A stretch of 64,000 nucleotides of DNA from Clavibacter californiensis (GTDB lineage: Bacteria; Actinomycetota; Actinomycetes; Actinomycetales; Microbacteriaceae), in the NCBI RefSeq assembly GCF_021952865.1, contig NZ_CP040792.1, positions 1,736,001-1,800,000 of the forward strand. The letters run 5' to 3'. This document shows positions 47,914 through 63,348 of this stretch, in pieces (within the stretch, counting starts at the first letter, position 1; each line of letters begins with the position of its first letter). A model generated the notes under the pieces. The model made no database searches, was not told the origin of the DNA, and worked only from the letters and a program-made list of their open reading frames with translations. A program made the position numbers and the translations under genes.

Positions 47914-47984
47914 CGCCCGTGCGTCGGCGTTGACGCCTCGACCTGTGGACGGCCCCGACGGGATCCGCCCCTGATCAGCATCCT

Positions 47985-48254
47985 GTGCGGGTGCAGACGC
48001 GGACCCCACTCGACACCATCGCCGGACGGGTGCGGGAGCGCCTGCGGGACGACGGGGCGGCGGCCGATCCCGCGGGAACCGCCGCGGTGGTGCGTGAGGA
48101 GGTCAGGCGGTTCGCGGAGCAGGCGCTCGGATCCGACTCCCGGCTCCTCGACGACGAGGCGGCCACCGAGCGCCAGGTGCTCGCGCGCATCACGGGCTTC
48201 GGCGCCCTGCAGCCGCTCCTCGACGACGACTCGATCGAGGAGATCTGGATCAAC
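47985..48254 (+). pseudogene. tadA: Flp/Tad pilus assembly ATPase tadA/cpaF, N-terminal fragment
   Basis: 90 codons remain: IAGRVRERL, LARITGFGALQPLLDD and DSIEEIWIN, the N-terminal helical region of CpaF/TadA ATPases. The frame runs into the integrated element and ends after about 25 foreign residues at 48329. The rest of the gene resumes at 63338 beyond the element, in the same reading phase when joined at the shared TCTGGATCAAC. TadA drives Flp pilus assembly or DNA uptake pili, so this strain should lack that function while the element is in place. Confidence 0.9.
48239..48254. repeat. attL core repeat
   Basis: GGAGATCTGGATCAAC. Matches 63333-63348 (GGAGTTCTGGATCAAC) with one mismatch; the last 11 bases are identical. 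It lies in the tadA codons for Glu-Ile-Trp-Ile-Asn. The element's integrase gene starts directly inside, on the opposite strand. Confidence 0.88.
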
Positions 48255-48271
48255 TCCGCGCAGCCCCGCGG

Positions 48272-49381
48272 CTACACGGATGCGCGGGTGTCACTCGTCA
48301 GAAATTCGTCAGCGGGCGCGAAGACCTGATCGACGAGGCCCTCTGCCGCGGCGCGTGTGACGTCCTCCGGGCTTGGCCAGAGGTGGGAGTACGTGTCGAG
48401 CGTGATGCTCGGCTTGCTGTGCCCGAGCGCGTGCTGCACCGTCACGACGTCGCAGCCGGCGGCGATGAGTCCGGACGCGTAGAAGTGCCGCAGGGCGTGA
48501 AGCGTGAAGCCGAGGTCCCCGCGTGCGGCGAGCCAGGCGCTGTTCACCGTCGACGGCGCCGCGGGTCCTCCGGTCGCGCTCGGGAAGAGCCAGGCGCCCG
48601 GGTCGCCGGCGAGCTCGTAGCGGGCGGCGTGCTCGGCGAACATCTCGATCAGCGCGGGGGCGGCCGCGACGACGCGCTCGGATCCGTACTTCGGGAGCCG
48701 GACCTCGAGCTGTCCCTCTCCGCGCACGGCCTGCCTGCGGACTGCGAGCTTGCGGGTAAGGAAGTCGATGTCGCCGAGCTGCAGCGCGGACGCTTCACCG
48801 AGGCGAAGGCCAGCGAAGGCACACACGGCGAAGAGAGGCCTGTAGCGGTCGCTCGCGCCGTCGAGGATGGCGCGCACCTGCTGCGGGGTGGGGATCTCCA
48901 TCGCGGCGTCGGCGCGGCGTAGCGCGGGCGTGCGGACACCGAGGGTGGGGTCCTCGTGGATCCTGTGCTCGAGGATCGCGGCCCGGAACACGGTGCGCGC
49001 GTTCATCACGCGCGTGCGGATGGTCTGGGGCGCGAGGCCGCGCTTCTGCATGGCCTTCACCCACTCCTCGACGTGCGCGCGGGTGATGCGCTGCAGCCGC
49101 TCGTCGGCGAACGGCGCCTGGCCGGCGACGAGGTCCATCGCGCGTCGGGTGCTGGTCTCCCAGACCTGCCGCACGGCCCAGACGGCGTAGAAGTCGGCGA
49201 AGGTCGACCGCGCGGTCCGCGGGTCGGTGCTGCGGCCGGTGACGCGCTCCGCGGTGCGCTCGTCGAGCCACTGCTGCACGACGGCACGGCGCGCGTTGGT
49301 GCGGGTCTGCTGCGGGCCACCCGGGACCGCGCGGAACTGCGCCTGGTACTTCCCGCTGGGGAGCTTGCGGATGCTACTCAT
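48272..49381 (-). CDS. Tyrosine recombinase (integrase)
   Basis: 369 aa. An N-terminal AP2-like arm-binding stretch (SSIRKLPSGKYQAQFR) and a SAM-like core-binding domain (FADFYAVWAVRQ to HRIHEDP) precede the catalytic domain. The catalytic residues are present: Arg in AGLRLGEAS near 205, His-x2-Arg in LHALRHFYAS near 310, His in LGHSKPSI near 335 and Tyr in DTYSHLW near 344. It catalyses integration at the tadA site. ATG overlaps the stop of the XRE gene. The stop lies only 18 bp inside attL. Confidence 0.96.
   Translation of the reverse strand: MSSIRKLPSGKYQAQFRAVPGGPQQTRTNARRAVVQQWLDERTAERVTGRSTDPRTARSTFADFYAVWAVRQVWETSTRRAMDLVAGQAPFADERLQRITRAHVEEWVKAMQKRGLAPQTIRTRVMNARTVFRAAILEHRIHEDPTLGVRTPALRRADAAMEIPTPQQVRAILDGASDRYRPLFAVCAFAGLRLGEASALQLGDIDFLTRKLAVRRQAVRGEGQLEVRLPKYGSERVVAAAPALIEMFAEHAARYELAGDPGAWLFPSATGGPAAPSTVNSAWLAARGDLGFTLHALRHFYASGLIAAGCDVVTVQHALGHSKPSITLDTYSHLWPSPEDVTRAAAEGLVDQVFAPADEFLTSDTRASV
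48294..48312. repeat. Left arm-type integrase site candidate
   Basis: CTCGTCAG and TTCGTCAG, direct repeats starting 11 bp apart. The same pair with identical spacing and orientation occurs near the right end. They lie 40-58 bp inside the left core and inside the integrase 3' coding region. Confidence 0.65.
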
Positions 49382-49895
49382 CGTCGCCGTCTTCGTTCTC
49401 ATACCAACGGCCACCGAAGGCTCGCATGCCGCCTTCTGTCGTTCCGTTGCGCAAGAAGGAGCGATCGACTGGCTTGTCCGCCTCAATCGACACCAGAGGG
49501 TAGAGCCACCCAGGGAGGGAGCGGGCCTTGAACGCGCGAACGTCATCCGGCTCGAGCTCTCGTTCGGCGTACATCCACTCCCAGAGCAGGACGACGGATC
49601 CGTGCCCGCCCGTGATCTCTGCCTTCTCGTCGACTCCCGCATGCGGCAGCAGAAGCGACGCGGGCGACACATCGAGTGCGAGCGCGATGGCCATGAGGTC
49701 ATCAACGTCAACGCGGCGGCTGTTGTTCTCGATCTTGCTCAAGCCGGAGAAGCTGATGCGATTCCCCATGTTCCACAAGATGGACTCGAGCCTCTCAAGG
49801 CTCATCTGTTGGCTCTTGCGGACGCGCGCGATGTTCGCCGCCACAGTCCGGCCGGTAGCTCCTTGATCGTGGCCTCGTCGGCGTCCGTTCTCCAT
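49374..49895 (-). CDS. XRE-family HTH regulator of the element
   Basis: 173 aa from ATG at 49895. An N-terminal helix-turn-helix (TVAANIARVRKSQQMSLERLES, then FSGLSKIENNSRRVDVDDLMAIALAL, residues about 18-72) is followed by an acidic, Trp-rich region (WEWMYAERELEPDDVRAF). It probably represses its own and the divergent promoter, like a phage repressor, and overlaps the integrase gene by 8 bp, so both are made together in the integrated state. A 7-nt gap to TAGATT suggests a leaderless start. Confidence 0.85.
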   Translation of the reverse strand: MENGRRRGHDQGATGRTVAANIARVRKSQQMSLERLESILWNMGNRISFSGLSKIENNSRRVDVDDLMAIALALDVSPASLLLPHAGVDEKAEITGGHGSVVLLWEWMYAERELEPDDVRAFKARSLPGWLYPLVSIEADKPVDRSFLRNGTTEGGMRAFGGRWYENEDGDDE

Positions 49896-49902
49896 CCAAG
49901 AA

Positions 49903-49947
49903 AATCTACCGTCGAGACTGGACAACAGCAAGCGACGGTCGTAGATT
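49903..49947. promoter_or_regulatory. Overlapping divergent promoters with inverted repeat
   Basis: Leftward: -35 TTGCTG (49926-49931), 17-nt spacer, -10 TAGATT (49903-49908). Rightward: -35 TGGACA (49919-49924), 17-nt spacer, -10 TAGATT (49942-49947). The -35 regions interlock. AATCTACCGTCG (49903-49914) and CGACGGTCGTAGATT (49933-49947) form an imperfect inverted repeat spanning both -10 boxes. This is a layout for a two-state switch between integrase/XRE and excisionase expression. Confidence 0.65.
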
Positions 49948-49990
49948 GTCTTCGACAGCGAACCGATCGCTGACGAAGTAAGGAGCCCAT

Positions 49991-50170
49991 GTGAGCAAGT
50001 TCATGACCACCGACCAGACGGCGGAGTACATCAACACGCCGCTCAGCACCCTGAGGTACTGGATCGTCCAGGGCACCGCCCCGAAGTCCTTCAAGCTCGG
50101 CAAGCGCCGAATGTTCACCGTCGAGGACGTCGACGCGTGGATCAACACTCGCATGGACGCGGCCGTCTGA
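49991..50170 (+). CDS. Excisionase-like small HTH protein
   Basis: 59 aa. One helix-turn-helix of the MerR/excisionase (HTH_17) type: MTTDQTAEYINTPLSTLRYW, then FKLGKRRMFTVEDVDAWI. It probably bends attachment-site DNA for excision and may regulate the divergent promoter. GTG at 49991 has AAGGAG 6-9 nt upstream. It is too short for common length cut-offs but the fold is clear. Its TGA overlaps the next ATG. Confidence 0.85.
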   Translation: MSKFMTTDQTAEYINTPLSTLRYWIVQGTAPKSFKLGKRRMFTVEDVDAWINTRMDAAV

Positions 50171-50352
50171 TGGCTGCCGTCGGCGAAGTCGTCCTCGCGA
50201 TCTCCGCGGGGCACGCGCACTTTCCTGTCCGCGCGAGCAGCGGCAAGGCCAAGGTCGACGCCGCCTACCTGCTGAAGGAGCTCCCGAAGCTCGTCGCAGA
50301 CCTCGAGGCGTCACTCCGCAGGGTTCGCGACCGCGAGCTCTCCGCACGATGA
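50170..50352 (+). CDS. Small hypothetical protein of the element
   Basis: 60 aa. Helical, with VDAAYLLKELPKLVADLEASLRRVRDREL making a probable amphipathic coiled-coil C-terminus. ATG overlaps the excisionase stop (ATGG with TGA) and its TGA overlaps the next ATG, so it is translationally coupled on both sides. Unknown function. Confidence 0.65.
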   Translation: MAAVGEVVLAISAGHAHFPVRASSGKAKVDAAYLLKELPKLVADLEASLRRVRDRELSAR

Positions 50353-51086
50353 GCACCAACACGAAGACCCCCGCGCGGTTGCAGCCACTCGAGGGTCATG
50401 AATCCAACATCCAGCACAGGAAGCAGATCATGATCACCGTACCGACCCGCACCGCCCCCAGCAAGAGCACGTCGACCATCGACTGCCGCGACCTCGAGAC
50501 GAAGATGATCTCGAGCCGCCGTGAGGTGCAGTACCTCACGAAGAACGGCACGTGCGAGAAGATGCTCGCCCGCCTCGTCTACCGGCCAGCCAACGGCACC
50601 CTCTACGTCGAGGAGTTCGGTGGCGGCACGAAGGAGGACCGCGACCGGGTCACGAACATCGTCTGCGGCCTCCTCGACGGGGACGACAGCAGCTGGATCC
50701 CGTGGTCGCAGTGCCCCGCCCCGGACGTCGAGGATGGCACTCTGCAGGCGCAGGTCGGGTACGTGGTGCCCTGGCCGGAGTCCGCGCCTTCGTGGGCGAC
50801 ACGCGTGGAGGTGCAGCCTCGTGAGGAAGCACGGGGAGGTGAGCGCATCGCTGTCTTCGGCTCTGCCGCTCTCCGGCCATGGTCGGTGTGCGTCGAGCGC
50901 ACGGACTACCTCGAGGTCGATGGCACCGTTCAGAGCAGCGCCCCGGGCATCCGCGTCACCTTAGCCGGCGACGACGCGGCCGACGACGACATCCGCACGC
51001 CCGCACAGGCCCGGAGGCTCGCCGCTCAGCTCATCGACGCCGCCGACCTGCTCGAGCGCGTCCTGACCGGTGAGGCCGAGGCGTGA
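50349..51086 (+). CDS. Hypothetical protein of the element
   Basis: 245 aa. ATG at 50349 overlaps the previous stop; an alternative ATG at 50430 has a better ribosome site (AGGAAG) and codons before it look less typical, so the first 27 residues may not be translated. The body has mixed alpha/beta character with YVEEFGGGTKEDRDRVTNIV and a C-terminal helix RTPAQARRLAAQLIDAADLLERVL, reminiscent of small phage proteins that bind regulators. Not recognised. Overlaps the next GTG. Confidence 0.68.
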   Translation: MSTNTKTPARLQPLEGHESNIQHRKQIMITVPTRTAPSKSTSTIDCRDLETKMISSRREVQYLTKNGTCEKMLARLVYRPANGTLYVEEFGGGTKEDRDRVTNIVCGLLDGDDSSWIPWSQCPAPDVEDGTLQAQVGYVVPWPESAPSWATRVEVQPREEARGGERIAVFGSAALRPWSVCVERTDYLEVDGTVQSSAPGIRVTLAGDDAADDDIRTPAQARRLAAQLIDAADLLERVLTGEAEA

Positions 51087-51376
51087 GCGCGGTGACGCGG
51101 CTGTCTGCCGGCTTCGTGGACGACCTGCGGGACCTGTCCGACGCTGCGTTCCGGTTGCACGTCGAGGCGCTGGTGTGGTCCAACAAGCACGGCTTCGACC
51201 TCCGTATCCCGAAGGGCGACCTCGACCGCACCACGAAGGCGTCGGCTGCCGCTCAGGAGCTCATCGACGCCGGGCTGTGGTTCGTGATCGAGGGGCACTA
51301 CTTCATCGTCCACAGCGCCTTCCTGCAGCCGACTGCGCAGGCGGAGGGCATCGCAGGTGAGGTCGGCGTTGAGTGA
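51083..51376 (+). CDS. Hypothetical protein, possible winged-helix
   Basis: 97 aa. Sequence DDLRDLSDAAFRLHVEALVWSNKHGFDLRIPKGDL, then ELIDAGLWFVIEGHYFIVHSAFLQ resembles the N-terminal part of small phage/plasmid replication-associated proteins, where such a region precedes a winged helix. GTG overlaps the previous stop (GTGA); its stop overlaps the next GTG. Encoded just before the probable replication protein. Function inferred only from context. Confidence 0.6.
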   Translation: MSAVTRLSAGFVDDLRDLSDAAFRLHVEALVWSNKHGFDLRIPKGDLDRTTKASAAAQELIDAGLWFVIEGHYFIVHSAFLQPTAQAEGIAGEVGVE

Positions 51377-51822
51377 GCATCGAGGCCTTCAGGTGGGCGA
51401 AGACCGAGATCAGGCGCCGGAACAGGAAGGAGGCCGGCGCAGGACCCGCGCTGTCGCCTCCGCAGGCATCCGTGCTGCTCATGCTCGGGGACCACTACAA
51501 CGAGACGCTGGGGCGAGCGTGGCCGAGCCAGACCACGCTCGCGGAAGAGACGTCGCTCGCGCTGCGCACGGTGGTGCGTGCCGTGGAGGAGCTGCGCAAG
51601 AAGGGCCTCGTCGTCACGGAGCCGTGGACTCTGAACGAGGGGGCACAGCGCATGTCGCAGCGGTACCTCCTGCCGGCGTACAGGGCCGACGTGCGCCGGG
51701 CACGGGTGCTGCCGGTTCTTGCTTCGGCATGGTCGGACAGGGTCCTGGCGGCGAGCTTCGACGACCTGGTGCAGACCCCGGGCACGAACTTCTTCGTGGA
51801 GCGGGAAGCACTGGGGCTGTGA
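51373..51822 (+). CDS. Winged-helix (HTH_36-like) protein, possible replication initiator
   Basis: 149 aa. After a basic N-terminus (RWAKTEIRRRNRKEAG), a winged helix reads SPPQASVLLMLGDHYNETLGRAWPSQTTLAEETSLALRTVVRAVEELRKKGLVV, the HTH_36 pattern of phage and plasmid replication proteins. It lies 43 bp before an array of four iterons, the usual arrangement of an initiator and its origin. The second half is helical. Initiator role is inferred. Confidence 0.68.
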   Translation: MSIEAFRWAKTEIRRRNRKEAGAGPALSPPQASVLLMLGDHYNETLGRAWPSQTTLAEETSLALRTVVRAVEELRKKGLVVTEPWTLNEGAQRMSQRYLLPAYRADVRRARVLPVLASAWSDRVLAASFDDLVQTPGTNFFVEREALGL

Positions 51823-51865
51823 GGTGGTGCGGTGCAGCGCGCCACTGCGCCCATTCGAGCGGGCA

Positions 51866-51948
51866 CCCTGTCACAGAGTCACAGGGCCCCTGTCAGAGAG
51901 TCACTTGGGCCCCTGTCAGAGAGTCACAGCCCCCCTGTCACAGTGACG
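51866..51948. repeat. Iteron array, four direct repeats (possible origin)
   Basis: Unit CCCTGTCA(C/G)AGAGTCAC begins at 51866, 51888, 51911 and 51933, so copies are 22-23 bp apart, about two turns of DNA on one face. The fourth copy is partial and turns into the palindrome GTCACAGTGAC. Downstream, 51950-52000 is richer in A/T and carries GAGAGCTCTC. Such phased iterons beside a winged-helix gene are typical of plasmid origins; a promoter operator is the alternative. The 385-bp gap 51823-52207 holds no credible gene. Confidence 0.72.
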
Positions 51949-52207
51949 CACTATCTCTTAGAGAACTCCCAAGAGAGCTCTCAGAGGAACTCACAGCGCA
52001 ACCTGCCGGTCGCGCAGTGTCTTCGTCGTCGACGAGGAACAGCATGGATGACAGCTGTCCGATGCTGCTTGTGAGGTCACGAGGCCAACGGCTACCGCAT
52101 GCAGGACCCGCTTCTAGTGCAAGGGGCGCCGGCGCCGAGTTGTCCCAGGGGACTCCCGCGGGGACAACGCGACCGGTGTCCGAAGATGGGACCGCGGTGG
52201 TGCTCTG

Positions 52208-52606
52208 ATGCAGGAGCGACCACCGGGCAGCTACGTGCACGGGCAGGGCGGCCCCATCGTCGTCCTGCCCGGCCGTGTGGCCGCGTACCTCGAGCGGTAC
52301 GCCGGCCTCGACGACTTCCGGAAGCGGATACGCGGGCACGACGCCGAGGTGTACGCCGTCCTCTACGACCTGCACCGTGCTGCCCTCGTGTGGCGTGAGT
52401 CCGCGACCGGAACCCCCCATGAAGTACGTCCGGAACCAGCAGCAGAGTGGTTCACAACGGCGGAGGCAGCAGCCCGAGTCGGCATCACGGATCGCGGGAT
52501 CCGTCGTGCGATCGCCGAGAAGCGCCTTGCCGCGCGGCTCGTCGGTCGCAGCTGGCGGATCTCCCGTACCGACCTCGCCCACTTCCGGGCATCACGCGCC
52601 CACTGA
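52208..52606 (+). CDS. Protein with C-terminal excisionase-type HTH
   Basis: 132 aa. The N-terminal 80 residues are unfamiliar (VLPGRVAAYLERYAGLDDFRKRIRG). The C-terminal 50 hold a helix-turn-helix of the HTH_17 group: WFTTAEAAARVGITDRGIRRAIAEKRL, then VGRSWRISRTDLAHF. It may bind the element's DNA as a second regulator or a terminase-like DNA-recognition protein. First gene after the iteron gap; followed by a 244-aa unknown with 14-bp spacing. Confidence 0.78.
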   Translation: MQERPPGSYVHGQGGPIVVLPGRVAAYLERYAGLDDFRKRIRGHDAEVYAVLYDLHRAALVWRESATGTPHEVRPEPAAEWFTTAEAAARVGITDRGIRRAIAEKRLAARLVGRSWRISRTDLAHFRASRAH

Positions 52607-52620
52607 CCCGAGAGAAGCAC

Positions 52621-53355
52621 ATGCCCGTCATCGCCGGCTTCGAGATCCCGCCCAACCTCAACACGCCCACCTCGATCCAGCAGCAGGCGTCCGAGCTGCA
52701 GAACACGTTCGAGCGCGACACCCTGCCGCCCATCCGCGCGAACCACACCCTCTCCGCCGAGGGCAAGAAAATCCTCATCGCGAACGCGTGGATCCCCGTC
52801 CTCGAGGGAGTGGCCCGCCTGCAGGAGAAGGAGCGCACCGAGTTCGACCGCGCCATCACCCGCACCGAGACCGCCCTGTTCGGCACTATCGCCGGCAGCA
52901 CGGACGTCATCTCCACTCGGGACGCGTACGACCGGGTCGAGCAGATCCCCAACACGGCCGACGGGGAGCGCGACGCCACCAAGCTGCTCAAGCGCGCGAC
53001 CACCACCAACGACGCCGGCCTCGTCCGCGCAATCATCGCCACCGCCGTCAGCCGCGGATGGACCCGCTTCCTCAACGACTACCGCGACGCCAACACCGGT
53101 AGCACCGGAGCAGTCGAGGACTACCTGCAGCTGCGCACCTACGACCCCGACGCCTCGATGCTCGCCTGGTACGTGTACAAGACCAAGGCCCCCACCGAGA
53201 TCGCGAACATGACCATCGCCGGCATGCGCGAGCTCGTCGCAGGAGGATCGACCCGCAACCCCGCCGACGTGTACACCGACGTCATCCGCGGCCCCGAGAT
53301 CACCGACTCCATCCGCGACGAGTACGCACGCCAGCAGGCCAACGCCCGACGCTGA
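52621..53355 (+). CDS. Hypothetical phage-like protein
   Basis: 244 aa, mostly helical and acidic, with SIQQQASELQNTFERDTLPPIRANHTLSAEGKKILIANAW and many Thr/Asp/Asn. No signal, membrane helix or cysteine. GAGAGAAG precedes ATG at 52621. Size and position (after an HTH protein, before HNH) match unannotated phage genes, but the family is not recognised. Confidence 0.75.
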   Translation: MPVIAGFEIPPNLNTPTSIQQQASELQNTFERDTLPPIRANHTLSAEGKKILIANAWIPVLEGVARLQEKERTEFDRAITRTETALFGTIAGSTDVISTRDAYDRVEQIPNTADGERDATKLLKRATTTNDAGLVRAIIATAVSRGWTRFLNDYRDANTGSTGAVEDYLQLRTYDPDASMLAWYVYKTKAPTEIANMTIAGMRELVAGGSTRNPADVYTDVIRGPEITDSIRDEYARQQANARR

Positions 53356-53363
53356 CCACGCCC

Positions 53364-53603
53364 ATGACGCAGCAGCTCACGACCAGCCCAAGGGGTGGGG
53401 CATGCCTCCCCCCTCGACTCTCACGTAACACCGACGGTGAACAGAACTTCTCCGTGTACGGGATTGGGGGTCTCAGCATCCGCCCCGGATCGCGCCCGTA
53501 TCGAGGCTGTGAGGCGCTTGCGCAGGCCGCGGGACCGGACGTTGCACGAGCCGCTGCTGAAGCGGCACAGGGCCACACAGAGCGGGCACGGAGGACCACG
53601 TGA
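53364..53603 (+). CDS. Doubtful small ORF before the HNH gene
   Basis: 79 codons. ATG lies 8 bp after the preceding stop and the TGA overlaps the HNH GTG, which favours a gene. However, it has no ribosome site, an unconvincing composition and a G/C hairpin (53391-53413) near its start. Might instead be leader DNA with a terminator. Confidence 0.3.
   Translation: MTQQLTTSPRGGACLPPRLSRNTDGEQNFSVYGIGGLSIRPGSRPYRGCEALAQAAGPDVARAAAEAAQGHTERARRTT
53391..53413. terminator. G/C-rich imperfect hairpin
   Basis: AGGGGTGGGG and CCTCCCCCCT around CATG pair with two mismatches, shortly after the stop of the 244-aa gene. Possible attenuator or terminator before the HNH gene. Confidence 0.35.
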
Positions 53604-53932: not shown

Positions 53933-54145
53933 CCACCAGCCCCGCTCTCCGACCCACAGGGGGGTGGGGGCCACCCCGGCCTCCGAGACCACATTCGAAC
54001 CGCCGGAGAACCCTGCCAAACATGCGCCGGGTTCAAAGTTTACGGCCCCCTGGTCACTGAACCCGCTACTTCCCTCGTATTCAGAGGCATCCGGGCCTGC
54101 TGGGCCCTTCCTGAGAATCGCCGCAGACCGCACGAAAGGCACACC

Positions 54146-55695: not shown

Positions 55696-55775
55696 CCCGA
55701 CCCTCATCTCCCGGCGCCGCACACGCGGGGCGGCGCCGGGTCCCCACCTCACCGTGACACGAGCAGGAGTAGGGC

Positions 55776-58541
55776 ATGGCGGACAGGTCCGTATTCGTCA
55801 CCATCGGCGCGAAGGTCGACGGCTTCATCACCGGGCTCAAGAAGGCCCAGGAGCAGACGACCCAGTTCTCGAACAAGCTGGCAGTCCACGTCCAGAAGAA
55901 CGAGCAGGCCTTCACCACCGCGGGCACCGGGCTTGTCGCGCTCGGCGGTGTCGGCGTCCTCGCGGCCGGTGCGGCGATCGCGAAGTACGCCGAGTTCGAC
56001 AAGGCCATGTCCGAGGTGCAGGCCGCCACCCACTCCGCCGCCGAGGAGCAGAACGTCCTCCGGGAGGCGGCCCTCGAAGCCGGCGCCAGCACGAAGTACT
56101 CCGCCACTGAGGCAGCCGGCGCCATCGAGGAGCTCGCCAAGGCCGGCATCTCCACGGCCGACATCCTCAGCGGCGGGCTGTCCGGAGCCCTGGACCTGGC
56201 CGCGGCCGGCGGGCTCGGTGTCGCCGACGCTGCAGGTATCGCGTCGACGGCGCTTACCCAGTTCAAGCTCGCCGGGTCCGACATCCCCCACGTCGCCGAC
56301 CTCCTGTCCGCGGGTGCGGGCAAGGCCATGGGGTCCGTGCAGGACCTCTCCGGGGCCCTCAACCAGGCCGGCCTCGTCTCCTCCCAGACGGGCCTGTCCA
56401 TCGAGGAGACCACCGCCGGTCTCTCCGCGTTCGCGTCCGCGGGCCTCCTCGGATCCGACGCCGGCACGTCCTTCAAGTCCATGCTCCAGCGGCTCACCCC
56501 GCAGTCCGCAGAGGCCCAGGCGGCCATGGACAAGCTCGGCATCTCGGCGTACGACAGCCAGGGCGAGTTCATCGGCCTGTCCGAGTTCGCCGGCAACCTG
56601 CAGACGTCCCTCGCCGACCTCAGCGTCGAGCAGCGCAACAGCGCCCTCGCCACGATCTTCGGCTCCGACGCCGTCCGCGCTGCCTCCGTTCTCTACTCCG
56701 AGGGCGCGTCGGGCATCGCCGACTGGGAGGGGAAGGTCAACGACAGCGGGTACGCGGCCGAGACCGCCCGCATCCGCATGGACAACCTCGCCGGCGACGT
56801 CGAGAAGCTCGGCGGGTCCTTCGAGACGAACCTGATCAAGAGCGGCTCCGGCGCGAACGACGCCATCCGTGGTCTCGTGCAGACCACGACAGGGCTCCTC
56901 GACCTCGTCGGCGGCCTCCCGGCACCTGTCCTCTCCGCCGGCACCGCGATCCTCGGCATCGGGGGGTCGATCGCCCTGGCCGGTGGTGCGGCGCTGGTGG
57001 CTGCTCCGAAGGTCCTGGCCTTCAAGGAGGCCGTGAGCCTCACCGGCATCAAGGGCAAGGCGGCTGCGCTCGGTGTCGGTGCGTTTGGTGGGGCAATCGG
57101 CATCGCCGTGCTGGTCATCGGTGGCATCGTCAGTGCGGCTGCTGATGCTGCCGCCCAGGTGTCCGAGCTGTCTGACACCTTCGATGAGTCGACGGGCGCC
57201 ATCACGGAGCTCACTCGGGTGACGATCGCCAAGCGCCTGGCGGACGACGGCGTGTTCGAGACGGCGAAGAAGGCCGGGATTGGGCAGAAGGAGTTCACCG
57301 ACGCGATCCTCGAGGGCGGCAAGGCCCTCGACGACGTGCAAGACAAGATCGACGCATACGGCACCACCTCGCTGGTGCCGTGGTCGGAGAAGGACGCCGC
57401 CGCCCGGCAGCTGTCGGGCGCACTCGGGGAGCAGTCGGACCAGCTCGACAAGGCCAAGGAGAAGAACGAGAACCTCTCCGCGGCGACGGAAAGCAACACC
57501 GAGTCCACGCAGTCCGCCGCTGAGGCGTACCTTGCCGCGGCTGACGAGGCGGCAGGGGTCGTCGACCAGATCAAGCAGCTGATCGACGCGACGAACGAGG
57601 CGAACGGGGTCGGGCAGGACGCGGTCTCCGCGAACGCCAGCTACCAGAAGTCGCTGCAGGACGTGAAAGACACGATCCAGAAGGCCAAGGAGGGCGCCGA
57701 GGGGTACTCGACCTCCCTCGACGAGACCACGGCCGCAGGATCCGCGAACGCCGCCATGCTCGGCGGGCTCGCTGACGACTCGCAGAAGGCCGCGGCTGCG
57801 CAGTACGACCTCGACGTCAAGACCATGTCCGCGAAGGACGCCACGGACAAGTACAAGGCGTCCCTCGAGTCTGGTCGGCAGACCCTCTACGACAACGCGC
57901 TGGCGCTGACGGGGAACGCCCAGCAGGCGCAGGCGTTCACGGACAAGGTCTACGGGATCCCGTCGCAGAAGTCGTTCCAGCTCCTTGCGGACACGGCGGC
58001 CGCGGCGAACGAGGTGGACACGTTCTTCCGGACCTGGAACGGCCGCCGCATCGTCATGCGAGTCGAGACGACCGGCGCCGCGAACCCGGTGCAGGGCGGT
58101 GCCGCTGGTCCACGGGCGATCATGAAGGCCGACGGCGGTGTCGTCGACTTCTACGCCGCCGGCGGCATCCGTGAGAACCACGTCGCGCAGATCGCGAAGG
58201 CCGGCACCTGGCGGGTCTGGGCCGAGGACGAGACCGGGGGAGAGGCATACATCCCCCTCGCCGCATCCAAGCGCGCACGGTCGCTCGAGATCTTCAAGGA
58301 GACCGGCCGACGCCTCGGTGTGCAGGAGTTCGCCAACGGAGGCGTGTACGCACCTAGGCCCGTCTACGACCGCCCCGCGCAGATGTACATGACCGCCCCC
58401 GCCGTCGCCGTCGCGCCGCAGTTCAACGTGATCGTGCAGAGCAAGGGAGGCATCGACCTCACGCAGTACATCGACGTCCGCCTCGAGCGGGCCGACGCGC
58501 AGGCTGAGCTTGCTGGCCGGATGGGAAGGCAGGTCCGCTGA
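55776..58541 (+). CDS. Phage tail tape-measure protein (TP901 type)
   Basis: 921 aa. The conserved TP901 core is at residues about 70-280: EFDKAMSEVQAATHSAAEEQN, STKYSATEAAGAIEELAKAG, DLSGALNQAGLVSSQTGLSIEETTAGLSAFASAGL and a hydrophobic region GTAILGIGGSIALAGGAAL near 390. A long helical C-terminal half follows, with coiled-coil stretches. Such proteins set tail length and reach through the host envelope. GCAGGAG precedes the ATG. No other tail gene was recognised. Confidence 0.95.
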   Translation: MADRSVFVTIGAKVDGFITGLKKAQEQTTQFSNKLAVHVQKNEQAFTTAGTGLVALGGVGVLAAGAAIAKYAEFDKAMSEVQAATHSAAEEQNVLREAALEAGASTKYSATEAAGAIEELAKAGISTADILSGGLSGALDLAAAGGLGVADAAGIASTALTQFKLAGSDIPHVADLLSAGAGKAMGSVQDLSGALNQAGLVSSQTGLSIEETTAGLSAFASAGLLGSDAGTSFKSMLQRLTPQSAEAQAAMDKLGISAYDSQGEFIGLSEFAGNLQTSLADLSVEQRNSALATIFGSDAVRAASVLYSEGASGIADWEGKVNDSGYAAETARIRMDNLAGDVEKLGGSFETNLIKSGSGANDAIRGLVQTTTGLLDLVGGLPAPVLSAGTAILGIGGSIALAGGAALVAAPKVLAFKEAVSLTGIKGKAAALGVGAFGGAIGIAVLVIGGIVSAAADAAAQVSELSDTFDESTGAITELTRVTIAKRLADDGVFETAKKAGIGQKEFTDAILEGGKALDDVQDKIDAYGTTSLVPWSEKDAAARQLSGALGEQSDQLDKAKEKNENLSAATESNTESTQSAAEAYLAAADEAAGVVDQIKQLIDATNEANGVGQDAVSANASYQKSLQDVKDTIQKAKEGAEGYSTSLDETTAAGSANAAMLGGLADDSQKAAAAQYDLDVKTMSAKDATDKYKASLESGRQTLYDNALALTGNAQQAQAFTDKVYGIPSQKSFQLLADTAAAANEVDTFFRTWNGRRIVMRVETTGAANPVQGGAAGPRAIMKADGGVVDFYAAGGIRENHVAQIAKAGTWRVWAEDETGGEAYIPLAASKRARSLEIFKETGRRLGVQEFANGGVYAPRPVYDRPAQMYMTAPAVAVAPQFNVIVQSKGGIDLTQYIDVRLERADAQAELAGRMGRQVR

Positions 58542-58885
58542 TGGTGAGGAACACTGGTCACATGAGCGACGACACCCCCACGGAGCCCGACCACCTCTCG
58601 CTCCTGCAGGGCACGGACGGAGAGCTGTCCGTGCAGGCCGAGGGGCACGTGGAGCGGGTGAAGGCCCTCACGGCGCAGCTGATCGTGATCGGCCCGGACG
58701 AGGCCGCCTACGCCGCGGTACGAGCGGCCGTGCGGGATCCGGCGCTCGAGCGGGAGTACGCCAAGTCGGTGGCCATCGAGGCGGTGGAGCTCGCGGCCAG
58801 GTACACGATCCGGGAGATGCCGATCGCGCTCGTTCCCGTGTTCACGACGCGGATGCATCGGCTCATCATGGCCACCCGCATGTAG
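58541..58885 (+). CDS. Small hypothetical protein after the tape-measure gene
   Basis: 114 aa. Acidic N-terminus and helical body (HVERVKALTAQLIVIGPDEAAYAAVRAAV, EREYAKSVAIEAVELAARYTIREM). ATG overlaps the tape-measure stop (TGATGG); an ATG at 58562 is an alternative. Ends the rightward operon; a strong stem-loop follows 8 bp after the stop. Possibly a tail chaperone-like or attachment protein; unrecognised. Confidence 0.68.
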   Translation: MVRNTGHMSDDTPTEPDHLSLLQGTDGELSVQAEGHVERVKALTAQLIVIGPDEAAYAAVRAAVRDPALEREYAKSVAIEAVELAARYTIREMPIALVPVFTTRMHRLIMATRM

Positions 58886-58892
58886 ATGCAGG

Positions 58893-58935
58893 GAAGCCCC
58901 CGACACCACCTCACGGGAGGGGTGTCGGGGGCTTC
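58893..58935. terminator. Bidirectional stem-loop terminator
   Basis: GAAGCCCCCGACACC pairs perfectly with GGTGTCGGGGGCTTC (15 bp, 13-nt loop). It lies between the rightward phage-like operon and the leftward micro-ORF, so it can stop both. Confidence 0.8.
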
Positions 58936-58951
58936 TGCTGTTCCTGGGCGC

Positions 58952-59044
58952 CTACATGTCGGCATCCTCGTCATCGTCGTCCTGGGGGCCGTACAGCTCC
59001 CTGTCCGCCTCGATGGCCCAGTCGTCCCATTCGGTGTCGCGCAT
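58952..59044 (-). CDS. Very small acidic protein (30 aa)
   Basis: Reads MRDTEWDDWAIEADRELY, then GPQDDDDEDADM. GGAGG lies 6 nt before the ATG at 59044, a strong ribosome site, and the stop abuts the terminator. Half the residues are Asp/Glu and two are Trp. It resembles acidic micro-proteins in phages that mimic DNA or bind a host protein, but this is inference. Nothing else in this gap is protein-like. Confidence 0.55.
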   Translation of the reverse strand: MRDTEWDDWAIEADRELYGPQDDDDEDADM

Positions 59045-59169
59045 GTGCGCCTCCATTCATCTCGGAGGGGGTGTTTCCGCCCTCTCCCCGTACTATCGGC
59101 CGAACCCCACAGGAGTTCGGATGGAGAGAGCGCCAGCGCGACACCAGCTGCTCAGACAGGGCGCGGAGA

Positions 59170-59565
59170 TCAGACTTCGGTGCAGTCCTCGCCGTTGGTG
59201 GGATGGCCCGCGAGGACGAAATGGGTCCCGTCGGCCTCCATCACGGACACGTCGGTGACACCGGGGATGGCCTTCGCCTGCTCGCAGAGGGCGAGTGCCT
59301 CGAGTGCTTCGGGGCTGCCGTCGTCACCGCGGGGGTCGACGATCGTGGTGTCGAGCTTCAGCCGGCCGGGCTCGGTCTCGGTGGCCGCAGTGACAGATCC
59401 GCCGACGAGGGCTTGCGCCGCAGTGGAGATCTCGGAGTCGGCTGCAGGTGCGGACGTGGCGGGGGCTAAAGCGGCGGGTTCGGGTGCGGCCTCGGTGGAG
59501 CATCCGCACAGGGCGAGGGTTGCGGCGATGAGCAGGGCGGGGAGTGCGGGCAGAGCGCGGGTCAA
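59170..59565 (-). CDS. Putative lipoprotein of the element
   Basis: 131 aa from TTG at 59565. A short signal peptide with hydrophobic core ends in ALCGC (Cys about 21). The mature part has an Ala/Pro linker and a small domain with two cysteines (LALCEQAKAIPGVTDV, GHPTNGEDC). AGGAG lies 6-10 nt before the TTG. An ATG far upstream would destroy the signal peptide. Leftward with the next lipoprotein gene (43 bp), so a surface module. Confidence 0.68.
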   Translation of the reverse strand: MTRALPALPALLIAATLALCGCSTEAAPEPAALAPATSAPAADSEISTAAQALVGGSVTAATETEPGRLKLDTTIVDPRGDDGSPEALEALALCEQAKAIPGVTDVSVMEADGTHFVLAGHPTNGEDCTEV

Positions 59566-59608
59566 GAGATCTCCTGGTTTGGGGTGGCGGGTGCGGGGCG
59601 GACGGGTG

Positions 59609-60166
59609 CTACTGCGTGTACTCCTCACAGCCGGCCGACGTGTCTGCGGACAGGTTGAGACGCAGGCGCACGCGCTGTGCCGCCTCACCTGAAGCAGGGT
59701 CGTCTGCAAAGGCGATGGTGTTCAGAACCTCGAGGGACGGTGCAGCAGCCAGCGAGTCGTAGGTACCGGCGCCGGCCAGCATGCTGTCCCGCACGAGCGC
59801 AACGTCCTCGGCCACGGTGTCGGGCCACACGAACATCGGGTCATCAAGGATCTGCGCGGCTGCACGAGTCGCGTCCCTTCCTTCCGCTGCCGCTGTGTTC
59901 ATGACCGCGATGGGCTGGTTGGGGACCCGAGATGCTTCTCCGAACTCCCGGTCCTCCTTGTTGCTGCCGCAGACCGCTGAGAGGTAGCGGGCGCCTGCAG
60001 CTTCCGTGGTGAGGAGCTCGGGAGTGGGCGTCGGGCTGGGAGTGGGGGTGGGGCTGGGTGCTGTCGTTGCGGCTGCTTCGGGTGCAGCCGGCGCGGTGGT
60101 GCAGCCCGCCATGGTCAGCGCGAGCATGAGCGCGAGGGCGGGCAGGGTGAGGGCTGTTCGGGTCAT
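59609..60166 (-). CDS. Putative lipoprotein of the element
   Basis: 185 aa. Signal peptide with lipobox MAGC (Cys about 22), then a Pro/Thr/Ser linker (PTPTPSPTPTP) and a helical domain containing two cysteines (SAVCGSNKED and the C-terminal SAGCEEY). AGGAGGACCC precedes the ATG at 60166. Outer-surface lipoproteins in phages often block superinfection; this function is inferred from location only. Confidence 0.75.
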   Translation of the reverse strand: MTRTALTLPALALMLALTMAGCTTAPAAPEAAATTAPSPTPTPSPTPTPELLTTEAAGARYLSAVCGSNKEDREFGEASRVPNQPIAVMNTAAAEGRDATRAAAQILDDPMFVWPDTVAEDVALVRDSMLAGAGTYDSLAAAPSLEVLNTIAFADDPASGEAAQRVRLRLNLSADTSAGCEEYTQ

Positions 60167-60236
60167 GGGTCCTCCTGGGTCCCGTCGAGCGTACGGAGCC
60201 GCGACGAGGGCGCCCAGGCCCCTGTTCGGGTTTGCG

Positions 60237-60724
60237 TCAGCCGGACGCGGCCACGTGCGCTCGGAGTGCCGGCAGCGTGGGGAGGTCGACCCAGAGCTTG
60301 ATGGAGGCCTCGGTCACGGATGCTCCGTCGACGAGGTAGGCGTCGGCCCCAAGCCGGTCGAGCAGCGGCCCCAGCGACCCAGCCTTCGACGAGGACGCGT
60401 AACCAAGCTGCCGTCCCTTCCCGTACACCGCGACCGCGTTGACGTCGGCACGATTATCCGGCTCCCGCACGAGGAGGTACTGCGTCCCGCCGTAGATTTG
60501 CCGGTCCGGTCCGAGCACACGTAGCTGCTCCCGACGACGCGAAGTCGACGGGCCTCGAGGTGGCGCAGGTCCATGATGTTCAGCTGGTCGACGTGCAGGT
60601 CAGCGCGCCGGCGCGCAGTGGCCGCTCGAGGGACGCCAATGGTCTCGACCACCACGCGAGGAGGCGCTGCCTCAGCCGTCGCCTCGCTCTTCTTCGTCCC
60701 GGTCAGGCGCGCCCACAACCCCAT
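60237..60724 (-). pseudogene. HIRAN-domain protein, frameshifted
   Basis: The N-terminal frame from ATG 60724 reads MGLWARLTGTKKS and reaches RLRVVGSSYVC; the following frame reads YGGTQYLLVREPDNRADVNAVAVYGKGRQLGYASSSKAG. Together they make a HIRAN domain (VVGxSY, then REPDNxxDxNAVAVY, GY). The two halves are in different frames with a break near 60513-60525. Either a frameshift mutation, a sequencing error or programmed shifting. HIRAN domains bind DNA ends or stalled forks. The ATG has TACGCT 6 nt upstream. Confidence 0.72.
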
Positions 60725-60730
60725 GCTCGG

Positions 60731-60736
60731 AGCGTA
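60731..60736 (-). promoter_or_regulatory. Probable -10 of the HIRAN gene, leaderless
   Basis: TACGCT on the minus strand, 6 nt before the ATG at 60724. Confidence 0.45.
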
Positions 60737-60817
60737 AGCGTGCACGGGCGTCACCAAGCGCCCCAGATGGGGGCTCATGCTCGCGACTTCAGGGCTGCCT
60801 CCCGCGGCAGCGTGGCG

Positions 60818-61414
60818 CTACTGCCCGGTGACCCACCTGGCTTCCGCACGATCGACCAGCTGACGCAGCCCATCGAGCCACGGACGGATGTCCTCGAAGA
60901 CGTTGAAGCCATCAGGGGCGTCGGCGCTCGTCAGGCGCGCGTGCAGGAACTCCGGCGTTGAGGAGTAGACGACCGTCTCCGTGCCGTCTGGCAGTACGAC
61001 GTCCCACCCGGAGCGGCCGAGAGGATCGCCGTAGAAGCGACGTACAGCGCCGGGTGGAGGTGTCGGCTGCGGGGTGTTCGAGCTGAGATTCGTGATGGTC
61101 GCGGCAACGACCAGCCCCGTGGCGCCCTGCTTCTCGATGAGGTTGCGGAGCTCCTTGAAGTACTGGTCCCGCTTGCTTGCTCGTATGTCTTTCATCTCCT
61201 CGTCGTACCAGGCGGTGAAGGCCGGTCCAGCGAGGTCCTTGTTGCTGAGGTTCTGCAGGATGAAGGTGACGCGCCTGCCGTTCATGATGGCGTTCTGGAG
61301 GCCCATGTCAGCGTCGTCGCCGCGGGCGAGGAAGAGCTTGGCGCCCTCATCTGCGAACCTCAGCGCCTGCCGGGCGGAAGCGATGACGGAGCGGGCGTCG
61401 CGGTGAAGGCTCAT
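60818..61414 (-). CDS. Hypothetical protein of the element
   Basis: 198 aa. Helical N-terminal half (RDARSVIASARQALRFADEG, AFTAWYDEEMKDIRASKRDQYFKELRNLIEKQG) and a beta-rich C-terminal half (RSGWDVVLPDGTETVVYSST). Soluble, no signal. The ATG at 61414 has TACGGT 6 nt upstream. It resembles uncharacterised accessory proteins scattered in actinobacterial genomes. No catalytic motif. Confidence 0.7.
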   Translation of the reverse strand: MSLHRDARSVIASARQALRFADEGAKLFLARGDDADMGLQNAIMNGRRVTFILQNLSNKDLAGPAFTAWYDEEMKDIRASKRDQYFKELRNLIEKQGATGLVVAATITNLSSNTPQPTPPPGAVRRFYGDPLGRSGWDVVLPDGTETVVYSSTPEFLHARLTSADAPDGFNVFEDIRPWLDGLRQLVDRAEARWVTGQ

Positions 61415-61420
61415 GGGGTG

Positions 61421-61426
61421 ACCGTA
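61421..61426 (-). promoter_or_regulatory. Probable -10 of the 198-aa gene, leaderless
   Basis: TACGGT on the minus strand, 6 nt before the ATG at 61414. Confidence 0.5.
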
Positions 61427-61446
61427 CCGCCCGCATCCGACGCCGG

Positions 61447-61779
61447 CTACTGCTCCATGTGGCCCGGGTCCCGCGGCTCCCAGGGGTCTCCGTTGCGCCA
61501 CACGCGCCGTGGAGGCGGCAACGCGTCCCGGTGCTGCAGCCACCACACGTACGCAGCCTCCGCGCTGCTGAAGGGCCCGTGCGAGCCGTCGCCGAGTCGC
61601 GGCGTGAGGATCCACCCGTCCCAGTCGAGGACGAGGGTCGCGAGGTGCCGGCGGGACGGCCACGCGGTCGACCGGTCCTCGATGCTCGCGCCGCCCGGTG
61701 ATGTCCGGTACAGCGCAGGCCCTACGGGCGCGCCGGCGGGTGTCGGGGTGGAGGAGTCGCGGCGCACCTTGTTCGTCAT
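61447..61779 (-). CDS. Hypothetical protein of the element
   Basis: 110 aa, rich in Trp, Pro and Arg (WDGWILTPRLGDGSHGPF, AAYVWWLQHRDALPPPRRVW). No signal or membrane helix. ATG at 61779 has TAGCCT 6 nt upstream, supporting translation from here. Not recognised. Divergent from the small HTH gene, with a palindrome between. Confidence 0.6.
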   Translation of the reverse strand: MTNKVRRDSSTPTPAGAPVGPALYRTSPGGASIEDRSTAWPSRRHLATLVLDWDGWILTPRLGDGSHGPFSSAEAAYVWWLQHRDALPPPRRVWRNGDPWEPRDPGHMEQ

Positions 61780-61785
61780 GCCAGG

Positions 61786-61791
61786 AGGCTA
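61786..61791 (-). promoter_or_regulatory. Probable -10 of the 110-aa gene, leaderless
   Basis: TAGCCT on the minus strand, 6 nt before the ATG at 61779. Confidence 0.45.
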
Positions 61792-61829
61792 CGAACGGGC
61801 GCCGACACCGCGGCTGGTGGTGCAGATGT

Positions 61830-61844
61830 GCACCAACATGGTGC
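61830..61844. promoter_or_regulatory. Small palindrome between divergent genes
   Basis: GCACC and GGTGC around AACAT. Lies between the 110-aa gene and the HTH gene at 61870, a plausible operator for the latter. Confidence 0.35.
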
Positions 61845-61869
61845 GTCCCGATTCGGGCACTCTGGCGGG

Positions 61870-62226
61870 ATGTCTGACCTCGAGACCATCATCCAGAAGC
61901 TCGTCCGCCAGGAGCTGCAGGAGCAAATGCCCGTCATCATCGCGCGAGCCCTCGACGAGGACCGACGTGCACACACCGAGGCGGAGCAGGCGAGCGGTGG
62001 CACCATGCCCGACCGCATGAGCGTGAAGGAAGCCGCGGCGGCCGCCCGGAGGCACGACGCGACGATCCGCGTTGCGCTCGAGGGTGGAGAGCTCCACGGC
62101 GTGCAGCGAGTCGCCCGTGGGAAGTGGATGATCGAGCGCCAGTGCCTCCTCGCGTGGATGGAGGGCGACCCGTGCATCCACAAGCAGAACGTCTCGCCGC
62201 TCCGCCCGCGACGGCCGAAGAACTGA
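61870..62226 (+). CDS. Small DNA-binding (HTH) protein of the element
   Basis: 118 aa. N-terminal coiled-coil-like LETIIQKLVRQELQEQMPVIIARAL, then a helix-turn-helix MSVKEAAAAARRHDATIRVALEGGELHG with the wing GKWMIERQCLLAWMEG, the excisionase-type pattern. It should bind element DNA, perhaps at the nearby palindrome. ATG at 61870 is preferred to 61828 because the earlier 14 residues look non-coding. Confidence 0.75.
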   Translation: MSDLETIIQKLVRQELQEQMPVIIARALDEDRRAHTEAEQASGGTMPDRMSVKEAAAAARRHDATIRVALEGGELHGVQRVARGKWMIERQCLLAWMEGDPCIHKQNVSPLRPRRPKN

Positions 62227-62263
62227 CGCGCACGATCGTTGCGTGAACGCCGGGCTGGACGCA

Positions 62264-62269
62264 TAGAAT
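62264..62269 (+). promoter_or_regulatory. Probable -10 of the small HTH gene, leaderless
   Basis: TAGAAT, 6 nt before the ATG at 62276. TTGCGT at 62239-62244 is a possible -35 at a long 19-nt spacing. Confidence 0.6.
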
Positions 62270-62275
62270 CTGCGC

Positions 62276-62518
62276 ATGGAGAAGGCTGAGCTGCTGTCGA
62301 TGAAGAAGGCGGCGCAGCGCGTGCACCGCACCGAGCGCACCATCCAGAGGTGGATCAACGAAGACGGGATGCGCTTCATCTGGAAGGGCGGCCGCAAGAT
62401 GATCCGCCTCGAGGACCTGCTGCTGCACTACCGAGCGAACCTCAAGGCGAACCCGGCCCGGCAGAAGCTGCACCCGCTCGAGTCGAACCCGATGCGAGGC
62501 GTCGTCGCCGGTCGCTGA
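62276..62518 (+). CDS. Small HTH protein of the element
   Basis: 80 aa. Helix-turn-helix: LSMKKAAQRVHRTERTIQRWINEDGMRF, then the wing GGRKMIRLEDLLLHYRANL. MerR/excisionase-like. Clear -10 (TAGAAT) 6 nt upstream of the ATG and no ribosome site, so a leaderless message. Probably a regulator of the right-end module or a second directionality factor. Confidence 0.78.
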   Translation: MEKAELLSMKKAAQRVHRTERTIQRWINEDGMRFIWKGGRKMIRLEDLLLHYRANLKANPARQKLHPLESNPMRGVVAGR

Positions 62519-62532
62519 GGTCTCTGCGGGGC

Positions 62533-62538
62533 TACCGT
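62533..62538 (+). promoter_or_regulatory. Probable -10 of the coiled-coil gene, leaderless
   Basis: TACCGT, 6 nt before the GTG at 62545. Confidence 0.5.
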
Positions 62539-62544
62539 CTACGG

Positions 62545-63183
62545 GTGAACGCACACACCCTTGGATCGTGGTTGGACGTCCTCACGGACATCCTCATCCC
62601 CGTTCTGGCCATCTACATTCCCACCCGTCTCGCGGTCAGACTCGCGAAGGCGGAGCGGTTGGCGGCAGACGCTGCTCGCATCGAAGACAGGCGACTCGAC
62701 GCAGAAGCACGGGCTGAGGATCGCCGCTTGGCTGTGGAGGCTCGCGATGAGGACCGTCGACTCGTGAAGGAGGCGCGCGACGAAGATCGCCGCCTTGAGC
62801 AAGAGGAGGACCGCGAGCGGCAGCGACAGGCAGGGGGAGCGGCCGCGCTGGAAGCCATGGAGCAGCTCCTGAGAGTGGCTCAGGAGCGCGAGGACTTCAA
62901 GCAGAGAGAGCTCCTAGTCCCGATGCGCTCTCTCCTGCTGGAGATGGGCTTGAAGCTGCGACCACATCATGCCGTGGTGAACCGCTGGGCGCTGGCCGAC
63001 ATCAATGCCGTGCTGCAAGTCACTGACGTGAGAGACGACGACGGGCGGCCCTTGCACATGGAGGAGATACAGGACCGCCACTCCGCGTTCAGTATCCGGA
63101 TCTCACAGTGGCGCCTTGGCCGCACGCCTGACGCGTGGTTCGAGGGCCGCGAGGTGAAGCCCCTCGGCGAACCGCCCATGTAG
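62545..63183 (+). CDS. Membrane-anchored coiled-coil protein with 11-residue repeats
   Basis: 212 aa from GTG at 62545. Residues about 8-30 are hydrophobic (WLDVLTDILIPVLAIYIP), one membrane helix. Residues 45-90 hold four copies of an 11-residue repeat, (A/D)EDRRLxxEAR, then EEDRERQRQ: a long charged right-handed-type coiled coil. A C-terminal globular part ends REVKPLGEPPM. It may span the membrane face as a sensor or exclusion protein. The right-most gene of the element; no family recognised. Confidence 0.72.
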   Translation: MNAHTLGSWLDVLTDILIPVLAIYIPTRLAVRLAKAERLAADAARIEDRRLDAEARAEDRRLAVEARDEDRRLVKEARDEDRRLEQEEDRERQRQAGGAAALEAMEQLLRVAQEREDFKQRELLVPMRSLLLEMGLKLRPHHAVVNRWALADINAVLQVTDVRDDDGRPLHMEEIQDRHSAFSIRISQWRLGRTPDAWFEGREVKPLGEPPM

Positions 63184-63212
63184 TAGTCACGCCGACCGTC
63201 CACGGAGCGCAA

Positions 63213-63231
63213 TTCGTCAGCCGTTCGTCAG
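63213..63231. repeat. Right arm-type integrase site candidate
   Basis: TTCGTCAG at 63213 and 63224, two direct copies starting 11 bp apart, as at the left end (48294-48312). They lie 102-125 bp inside the right core. Confidence 0.65.
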
Positions 63232-63332
63232 CACACCTCGCAGCGACCACATCCAGTCATCAACGGCTGAACCCCACATCCCCGGAATCTCGGCATAGTC
63301 AACACCTGCCGTCGACAGCCAACACCCCGGCG

Positions 63333-63348
63333 GGAGTTCTGGATCAAC
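63333..63348. repeat. attR core repeat
   Basis: GGAGTTCTGGATCAAC, the counterpart of 48239-48254 with one mismatch. It restores the tadA codons Trp-Ile-Asn and leads straight into the rest of that gene. Confidence 0.88.

Follow-up and report, generated by a model that had tools for sequence, protein, structure and literature searches.

We analysed a 64,000-nt window of Clavibacter californiensis (G000:C1:1736001–1800000, on contig NZ_CP040792.1; the host genome comprises 3.24 Mb in two contigs), in which tadA, the gene of the Flp pilus ATPase, is interrupted at its Trp-Ile-Asn codons by a 15.1-kb element with 16-bp repeats on either side. Taken as a whole, the evidence is best explained if this element, hereafter element 1, is an integrated phage satellite, neither a prophage nor a pilus switch, a reading that we consider probable, and the element would belong to an apparently undescribed family of actinobacterial phage satellites. 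A leftward integrase–repressor pair stands opposite rightward early genes (replication initiator, HTH_17), which are followed by u283 (the marker of the family), an HNH nuclease, a spike and a tape measure gene. Capsid, portal, large terminase, tail tube, lysis and relaxase families had no match among the 19 open reading frames (ORFs) chosen for scans with Pfam and PHROGs, a choice that left out small or overlapping ORFs such as 50137–50352 and 53364–53603.

A preliminary description of this DNA had claimed that the element splits tadA at the Trp-Ile-Asn motif between 16-bp direct repeats with one mismatch, and comparison with relatives bore out both points. The repeat copies, GGAGATCTGGATCAAC at 48239–48254 (attL core, forward strand) and GGAGTTCTGGATCAAC at 63333–63348 (attR core, forward strand), lie 15,094 bp apart, and the window has just two copies of the 11-bp TCTGGATCAAC, both on the same strand. 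Seventeen genomes of the genus besides the host were compared, of which 16 have tadA; same-genus alignments of the left flank run to 48254 (a few bases more in some) and those of the right flank start from 63333, and in all 16 genomes they overlap on one fully open gene, so that the uninterrupted site for which the preliminary description had proposed a search is present in each of them. A chance repeat is ruled out by these uninterrupted sites. At the mismatch position, the base of the left copy is present at 15 of the 16 empty sites, and hence that of the right copy probably derives from the element. The 5′ piece of tadA, up to Trp-Ile-Asn (47985–48254, forward strand; blastn to the 16 same-genus tadA loci), is a truncated frame that stops after 114 amino acids, and the 3′ piece (63337–64000, forward strand; T2SSE PF00437, 3.4e-34, and blastn), which runs beyond the window, has a single possible start, GTG at 63367, with no visible ribosome-binding site; a functional protein from the split gene is thus unlikely. 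The host genome has a second TadA homologue at C1:1358285. The genus member G011, the sole one of the 17 without tadA, has one TadA homologue, not two. The G+C content is 68.1% in the element versus 73.1% and 72.2% outside, and no RNA gene was found at the site by Rfam across 47500–64000; as had been proposed, the site-specific element sits in a protein-coding gene for the Tad pilus. Because the other genomes of the genus (18 with the host) have neither an integrase more than 38% identical nor such a tape measure, element 1 was probably gained by the host lineage alone.

The tyrosine integrase (369 amino acids; 48272–49381, reverse strand; PF00589, 3.8e-19; phrog_1, 4.3e-56) presumably carried out recombination between the 16-bp core and the best conserved tadA codons, at the place that the intact sites of the relatives mark. 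On the same strand lies an Xre-type repressor (49374–49931; HTH_3, 3.5e-7; phrog_11503, 9.1e-14). The forward strand carries an early gene that is weakly DUF6907-like (50349–51086; E 0.02, under the curated cut-off), a replication-initiator-like gene (51083–51376; phrog_3926, 7.4e-7), a replication initiator-like HTH_36 gene (51373–51822; PF13730, 5.2e-11; phrog_1032, 1.3e-9) whose product has homologues in the tadA elements of two other genomes (G057 and G128, tblastn), and an HTH_17 gene (52208–52606; PF12728, 5.9e-12) of a type that often directly precedes u283. These are followed by u283 (52621–53355; 244 amino acids from ATG, the name coming from a longer reading), an HNH endonuclease (53600–53932; phrog_1808, 2.4e-9; no Pfam match), a right-handed beta-helix protein of the tail spike or depolymerase kind (54217–55695; PF13229, 1.1e-12; phrog_6117, 3.8e-19; phrog_2234 tail spike, 1.1e-6) and an orphan tape measure protein of 921 amino acids in an open frame (55776–58541; PF10145, 4e-47; phrog_1533, 8.6e-85), all on the forward strand. 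The last four would form a morphogenesis-like module. Because genes for a head, portal, large terminase and tail tube were not found in the element, packaging, if there is any, would need a helper phage that supplies these parts, and the tape measure and spike of the element itself would allow it to determine the tail length of the borrowed particles, the entry of their DNA or their adsorption.

The tape measure of element 1 is 81% identical in protein and 83.6% in DNA to that of the 41-kb phage contig L078; the DNA homology begins at the start codon of the tape measure gene, and nothing else aligned across the 22.7 kb compared, upstream of which gene L078 has terminase, portal and head genes (translations read by eye). 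In a BLAST comparison of the ORFs of 18 elements or loci against 66 viral loci, no gene apart from the tape measure, with the ORFs that overlap it, was shared with more than two of the viral loci. In the phage records, tape measures were at most about 61% identical among the matches listed, and integrases were all under 60%. Eleven of 12 satellite tape measure genes are open (seven directly checked, four as open ORFs) and that of L257 is frameshifted into two ORFs; the ratio of nonsynonymous to synonymous substitution rates was 0.19–0.29 in four pairs (one satellite–phage and three satellite–satellite), as crude Nei–Gojobori estimates with synonymous sites near saturation in two of the pairs. 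The satellite tape measure thus seems, as far as sequences tell, to be in use. In a tree of 40 tape measure rows (12 satellite and 28 viral, the latter being those among the 66 loci whose match was of sufficient length), which carries a long-branch warning, the satellite genes group with phage genes, and the satellite rows need five state changes, compared with 10.5 for shuffled labels. At least three of the five are forced by well-supported branches, so that the gene has probably been exchanged between satellites and phages more than once. A PF10145 profile search of nine genomes gave a match in five, namely the host and the genomes of L075, L232, L233 and L234, in each a single match that lies inside the element.

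The marker u283 defines a set of related loci. At E 1e-30 the integrase had hits in 26 of 398 genomes of the family, that of the host among the 26, and the surroundings of some of these hits and of loci from the genome collection revealed further elements built in a similar way. A u283 profile (built from the host's own, L075 and L232 members) found 21 places in 20 of the 398. Queries with single u283 proteins gave nothing in 50,697 phage and 72,556 plasmid records, and the profile had no match in any of the 66 loci whose phages have a related tape measure. Relatives of u283 are present in seven IMG/VR contigs, of which the four longer than 10 kb measure 15.6–17.7 kb; these relatives needed an alignment as the query, since scans of viral contigs with the spike alone or u283 alone gave no relative, and the integrase alignment gave five viral contigs, at most 35% identical. 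One IMG/VR record, G435, was rejected as a circular satellite genome, for it has no terminal repeat. The AlphaFold model of u283 is helical at modest confidence (mean predicted local distance difference test score 71.9, predicted template modelling score 0.58), fold comparison gave nothing below E 0.35, and PDB sequence searches gave nothing convincing; from its gene position we would guess at a role in head or tail assembly.

Several other members are delimited by flanking repeats of their own. L075 (43-bp repeats, 15.26 kb), L232 (15-bp, 16.3 kb, at ychF), L233 (19-bp, 10.4 kb, also at ychF) and L234 (24-bp, 9.9 kb, at yajQ; target names by eye) each combine an integrase and early genes with a single tape measure gene, and L258 (14.9 kb, with flanking repeats) has an integrase, a tape measure and a gene for a scaffold-like protein. 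A small terminase was recognized by PHROGs in L075 and L257 (phrog_1496), and L233 has a GDSL lipase with weaker tail-fibre matches. No flanking repeats were found for L262, L263 and L266, and the search for them left out L255–L257, L259, L264, L265 and L267; a 15-bp repeat in L260 (copies 6.7 kb apart) and one in L234 (5.5 kb apart) were not accepted as attachment sites. A second marker family linking G057, L233 and L234 (‘KPFD’ proteins) was dropped after the L233 and L234 profile missed the G057 protein. L075 also carries an AAA_21 ATPase (L075:13108–14979), possibly an OLD-like defence gene, as cargo. In the host genus itself, L268 (G008:C1:2310001–2330000) encodes a u283 homologue within what resembles an element, close to an apparent ychF, the target also in L232 and L233.

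The tad operon is a recurrent landing site of this family: nine of the 21 u283 loci interrupt tadA, tadC or flp, seven of them seen from both sides and two from one. In the host itself a second element of 12.2 kb (G000:C1:1802032–1814280; L285:3033–15281) splits tadC near its 3′ end in the same operon, 1.7 kb past tadA and starting ∼2 kb beyond the window end, as located by comparison with G004, G012 and G008. It is unrelated to element 1 and has a serine integrase, primase-polymerase, helicase, resolvase and methyltransferase (translations by eye) and a u283 homologue detected by the profile; integration of element 1 thus breaks tadA and that of a second u283-bearing element breaks tadC. As in tad-1 of Micrococcus luteus, which we take to be in the same order as the host, tadB and tadC are separate genes in the host operon. 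The tadC gene is also hit by u283 elements in G149, G137, G150 and, with one side seen, G264, and the pilin gene flp in G108, G267 and, with one side seen, G305. Insertion at the Trp-Ile-Asn codons of tadA recurs in G057 (integrase 58% identical, ∼10.8 kb) and in G128 (46%, ∼13.9 kb), so that tadA is split in three of 25 family genomes with related integrases, host included. The preliminary description had proposed looking for the same element elsewhere; the other genomes of the genus have neither its integrase nor its tape measure, and related elements do sit at the same codons in other genera.

Across the genome collection, tadA adjoins relatives of the integrase in eight of 80 loci, from Amnibacterium (G128), Nesterenkonia, Blastococcus (two), Modestobacter, a Nocardioidaceae bin, Arthrobacter agilis and Ornithinimicrobium. 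In three of these besides G128 the halves of tadA lie near each other on one contig, ∼10.5, 20.2 and 26.9 kb apart; the weak rows are L211, which shows the 3′ tadA piece only, and L145, where the integrase is 585 bp from a tadA piece and the pieces are 1.18 Mb apart. In an integrase tree of 89 rows, the 10 tadA rows need four changes versus 9.7 in shuffles. L145 (G426:C1, Arthrobacter agilis) has its tadA pieces on opposite strands, and close to the 5′ piece are an integrase, an HTH_17 gene, a u283 piece and a small-terminase homologue; the insertion may have led to a rearrangement that separated the pieces. The Amnibacterium genome with the tadA element also has a separate u283 locus (L259, G128:C1:43998–44486), and the cargo of the G057 tadA element (L065:10950–12682) includes a DprA-like gene and a second gene, matching PsyrTA/ShosTA anti-phage models.

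Immediately after the tape measure gene of element 1, and with its start overlapping the end of that gene, comes an ORF for a 114-aa protein (58541–58885, forward strand) with no family match. On the reverse strand lie two overlapping lipoprotein-like genes without family match (59170–59709 and 59609–60166; signal peptides by eye), one of which has a 43% match in the integrase locus L067, a HIRAN-domain protein gene (60237–60518; PF08797, 2e-10) and two ORFs without family match (60818–61663 and 61447–61779). The forward strand then has two genes for HTH_17 proteins, candidates for an excisionase-like role (61828–62226 and 62276–62518; PF12728, 1.3e-6 and 1.1e-5, the second just below the curated cut-off; phrog_66, 1.1e-5 and 1.2e-4), and an ORF with an uncertain start for a coiled-coil, membrane-like protein (62350–63183; by eye, no family match). 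A defence scan of 10 proteins of the element gave nothing better than E 0.008.

Element 1 shares features with phage-inducible chromosomal islands (PICIs) of the Staphylococcus aureus pathogenicity island (SaPI) type: a size of ∼15 kb, an integrase at one end, flanking attachment-site repeats, a repressor that faces the replication genes and, in several members of the family, a small terminase, with no capsid, portal or large terminase found. It is an integrated island flanked by attachment sites, its repressor is transcribed away from the replication module (functions inferred from families), and no head, portal or large terminase of its own was detected among the 19 ORFs scanned. PICIs have no tail genes, whereas element 1 has an open tape measure and a spike, and we therefore class it as a PICI-like satellite and not as a PICI. 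The family further differs from PICIs in u283, in a spike or fibre in some members, in serine integrases in several and in its actinobacterial hosts. Capsid-forming PICIs (cf-PICIs) encode their own capsid, portal, protease and terminases, none of which was found here, and the structural and lysis modules of an intact tailed prophage are incomplete in element 1. Putative satellites of Escherichia coli (PMC10448857) are likewise integrated and have a tape measure without most tail genes, but they differ in major capsid and decoration proteins, RepA_N replicons and a baseplate component, where element 1 has a spike and no capsid was found. Among the Streptomyces satellites, MulchRoom has an integrase and MiniFlayer its own tail fibre (PMC10690885); cf-PICIs and these two encode heads and terminases, whereas here neither was found and a tape measure is present instead. 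A survey of actinobacterial prophages supposes that elements below 15 kb may be satellites (PMC10023795), a Curtobacterium prophage survey retained regions with capsid and terminase (PMC9862828), and in a Pseudomonas helper–satellite paper the tape measure is on the helper (PMC4936722). Searches of the open-access literature, preprints not included, brought up no account of such a family in Actinobacteria or of insertions aimed at tad genes.

Several observations weigh against the satellite reading or limit it. The E. coli satellites with tape measure and capsid genes had already been proposed (PMC10448857). An open tape measure accompanies eight of the 21 u283 loci, a frameshifted one is present in L257 and a fragment in L265, and the sequence read around the other 11 shows none. 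In L233 and L234, which do have a tape measure, the profile finds no u283, and the 17.7-kb IMG/VR contig L275 pairs a u283 relative with a large-terminase homologue but lacks any tape measure match, so that the marker is found there in a different gene setting. The small terminase of L232 and L234 according to Pfam is a minor tail protein according to PHROGs, and element 1 has no recognisable small terminase or clear defence gene, only the HNH nuclease. Satellite tape measures also cluster on the tree more than shuffled labels do (5 versus 10.5). The phrog_2 terminase profile has no match in the host, G043 and G430, and matches in G431, G432, G057 and G128 lie outside the elements; among the 18 genomes of the genus, no tape measure of this kind exists besides that of element 1, and hence no resident helper is known. 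Moreover, BLAST and a single terminase profile may overlook unusual heads and terminases.

Two other origins or roles were weighed for the element as such. A defective prophage, that is, a deletion derivative of a siphovirus keeping integrase, repressor, tape measure and spike, would account for a tape measure 81% identical to that of L078 and similar to it in length, for the lack of any detected lysis or head gene and for the damaged tape measures of L257 and L265; we nevertheless regard it as distinctly improbable, for the flanking repeats are intact, the tape measure is without phage neighbour genes, u283 was not found in the 50,697 phage records and a similar module is present in 12 elements, five of which besides that of the host have flanking repeats at 10–16 kb. 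Still harder to uphold is the proposal of the preliminary description that excision would restore tadA exactly and thereby switch the pilus on and off, a regulated toggling of the kind known for comK prophages. The short shared core, the excisionase-like HTH_17 genes and the uninterrupted sites in relatives would suit it, but the second element, with an integrase of another class, interrupts tadC in that operon as well. If element 1 alone were lost, the operon would still be broken; two independent elements would have to leave, which makes a switch very improbable. The hits at the same tadA codons in other genera and the marker-bearing elements in tadC and flp suggest recurrent inactivation of tad genes instead of switching.

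What an integrated phage satellite would gain from this inactivation is less certain. Prophages of Listeria sit in comK, and the likeness to elements in DNA-uptake genes that the preliminary description drew proved apt. In pneumococcus, prophages inserted in comYC shut down recombination by transformation (PMC12637031); both cases concern an insertion inside a DNA-uptake gene, the role of the Tad genes being taken from M. luteus, and they differ in that the present elements are satellites in three Tad genes of Actinobacteria with two integrase classes. In M. luteus both tad loci are required for transformation, and deletion of any single tad gene except tadB abolished it (PMC4322843). Element 1 sits in tadA and the second element in tadC, the need of tad genes for uptake being known from another organism, and a profile of the uptake channel ComEC matched in 12 of 12 genomes checked. 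By analogy with the comYC prophages, and because of the M. luteus role and the presence of ComEC, the benefit to the elements would likely lie in stopping DNA uptake, as pilus loss would leave the host unable to cure them by transformation. The combined proposal, that the satellite family refits the particles of its helpers with a tape measure and a spike or fibre of its own while its unrelated integrases systematically knock out the uptake pilus (tadA, tadC, flp) and so prevent curing, is offered tentatively.

It is a serious possibility, if not quite a probable one, that the tad targeting is neutral, that is, that integrases settle in conserved and dispensable genes and that the satellites gain nothing by the loss of the pilus. 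The tadA core is conserved across families, G011 does without the gene, and other elements sit at ychF, yajQ and tRNA-like ends (names by eye); on the other side, insertions made by both tyrosine and serine integrases affect three genes within a single operon, twice in one genome, and tadA, tadC and flp take nine of the 21 u283 loci. That the insertion shields host and element from phages using the Tad pilus as receptor seems unlikely to us, although pilus genes are interrupted recurrently and relatives have defence-like cargo (the PsyrTA/ShosTA-like pair of the G057 tadA element and the AAA_21 ATPase of L075), since we know of no pilus-dependent phage of these hosts.

The prevailing view is that satellites take complete tails from their helpers. 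Satellites that keep a tape measure of their own, and in some cases an adhesin as well, would show that control over tail length or DNA entry pays in its own right. With insertion recurring in one pilus operon, the idea that mobile elements may disable DNA uptake to protect themselves against curing becomes directly testable in Actinobacteria, among which M. luteus uses the Tad pilus for uptake.

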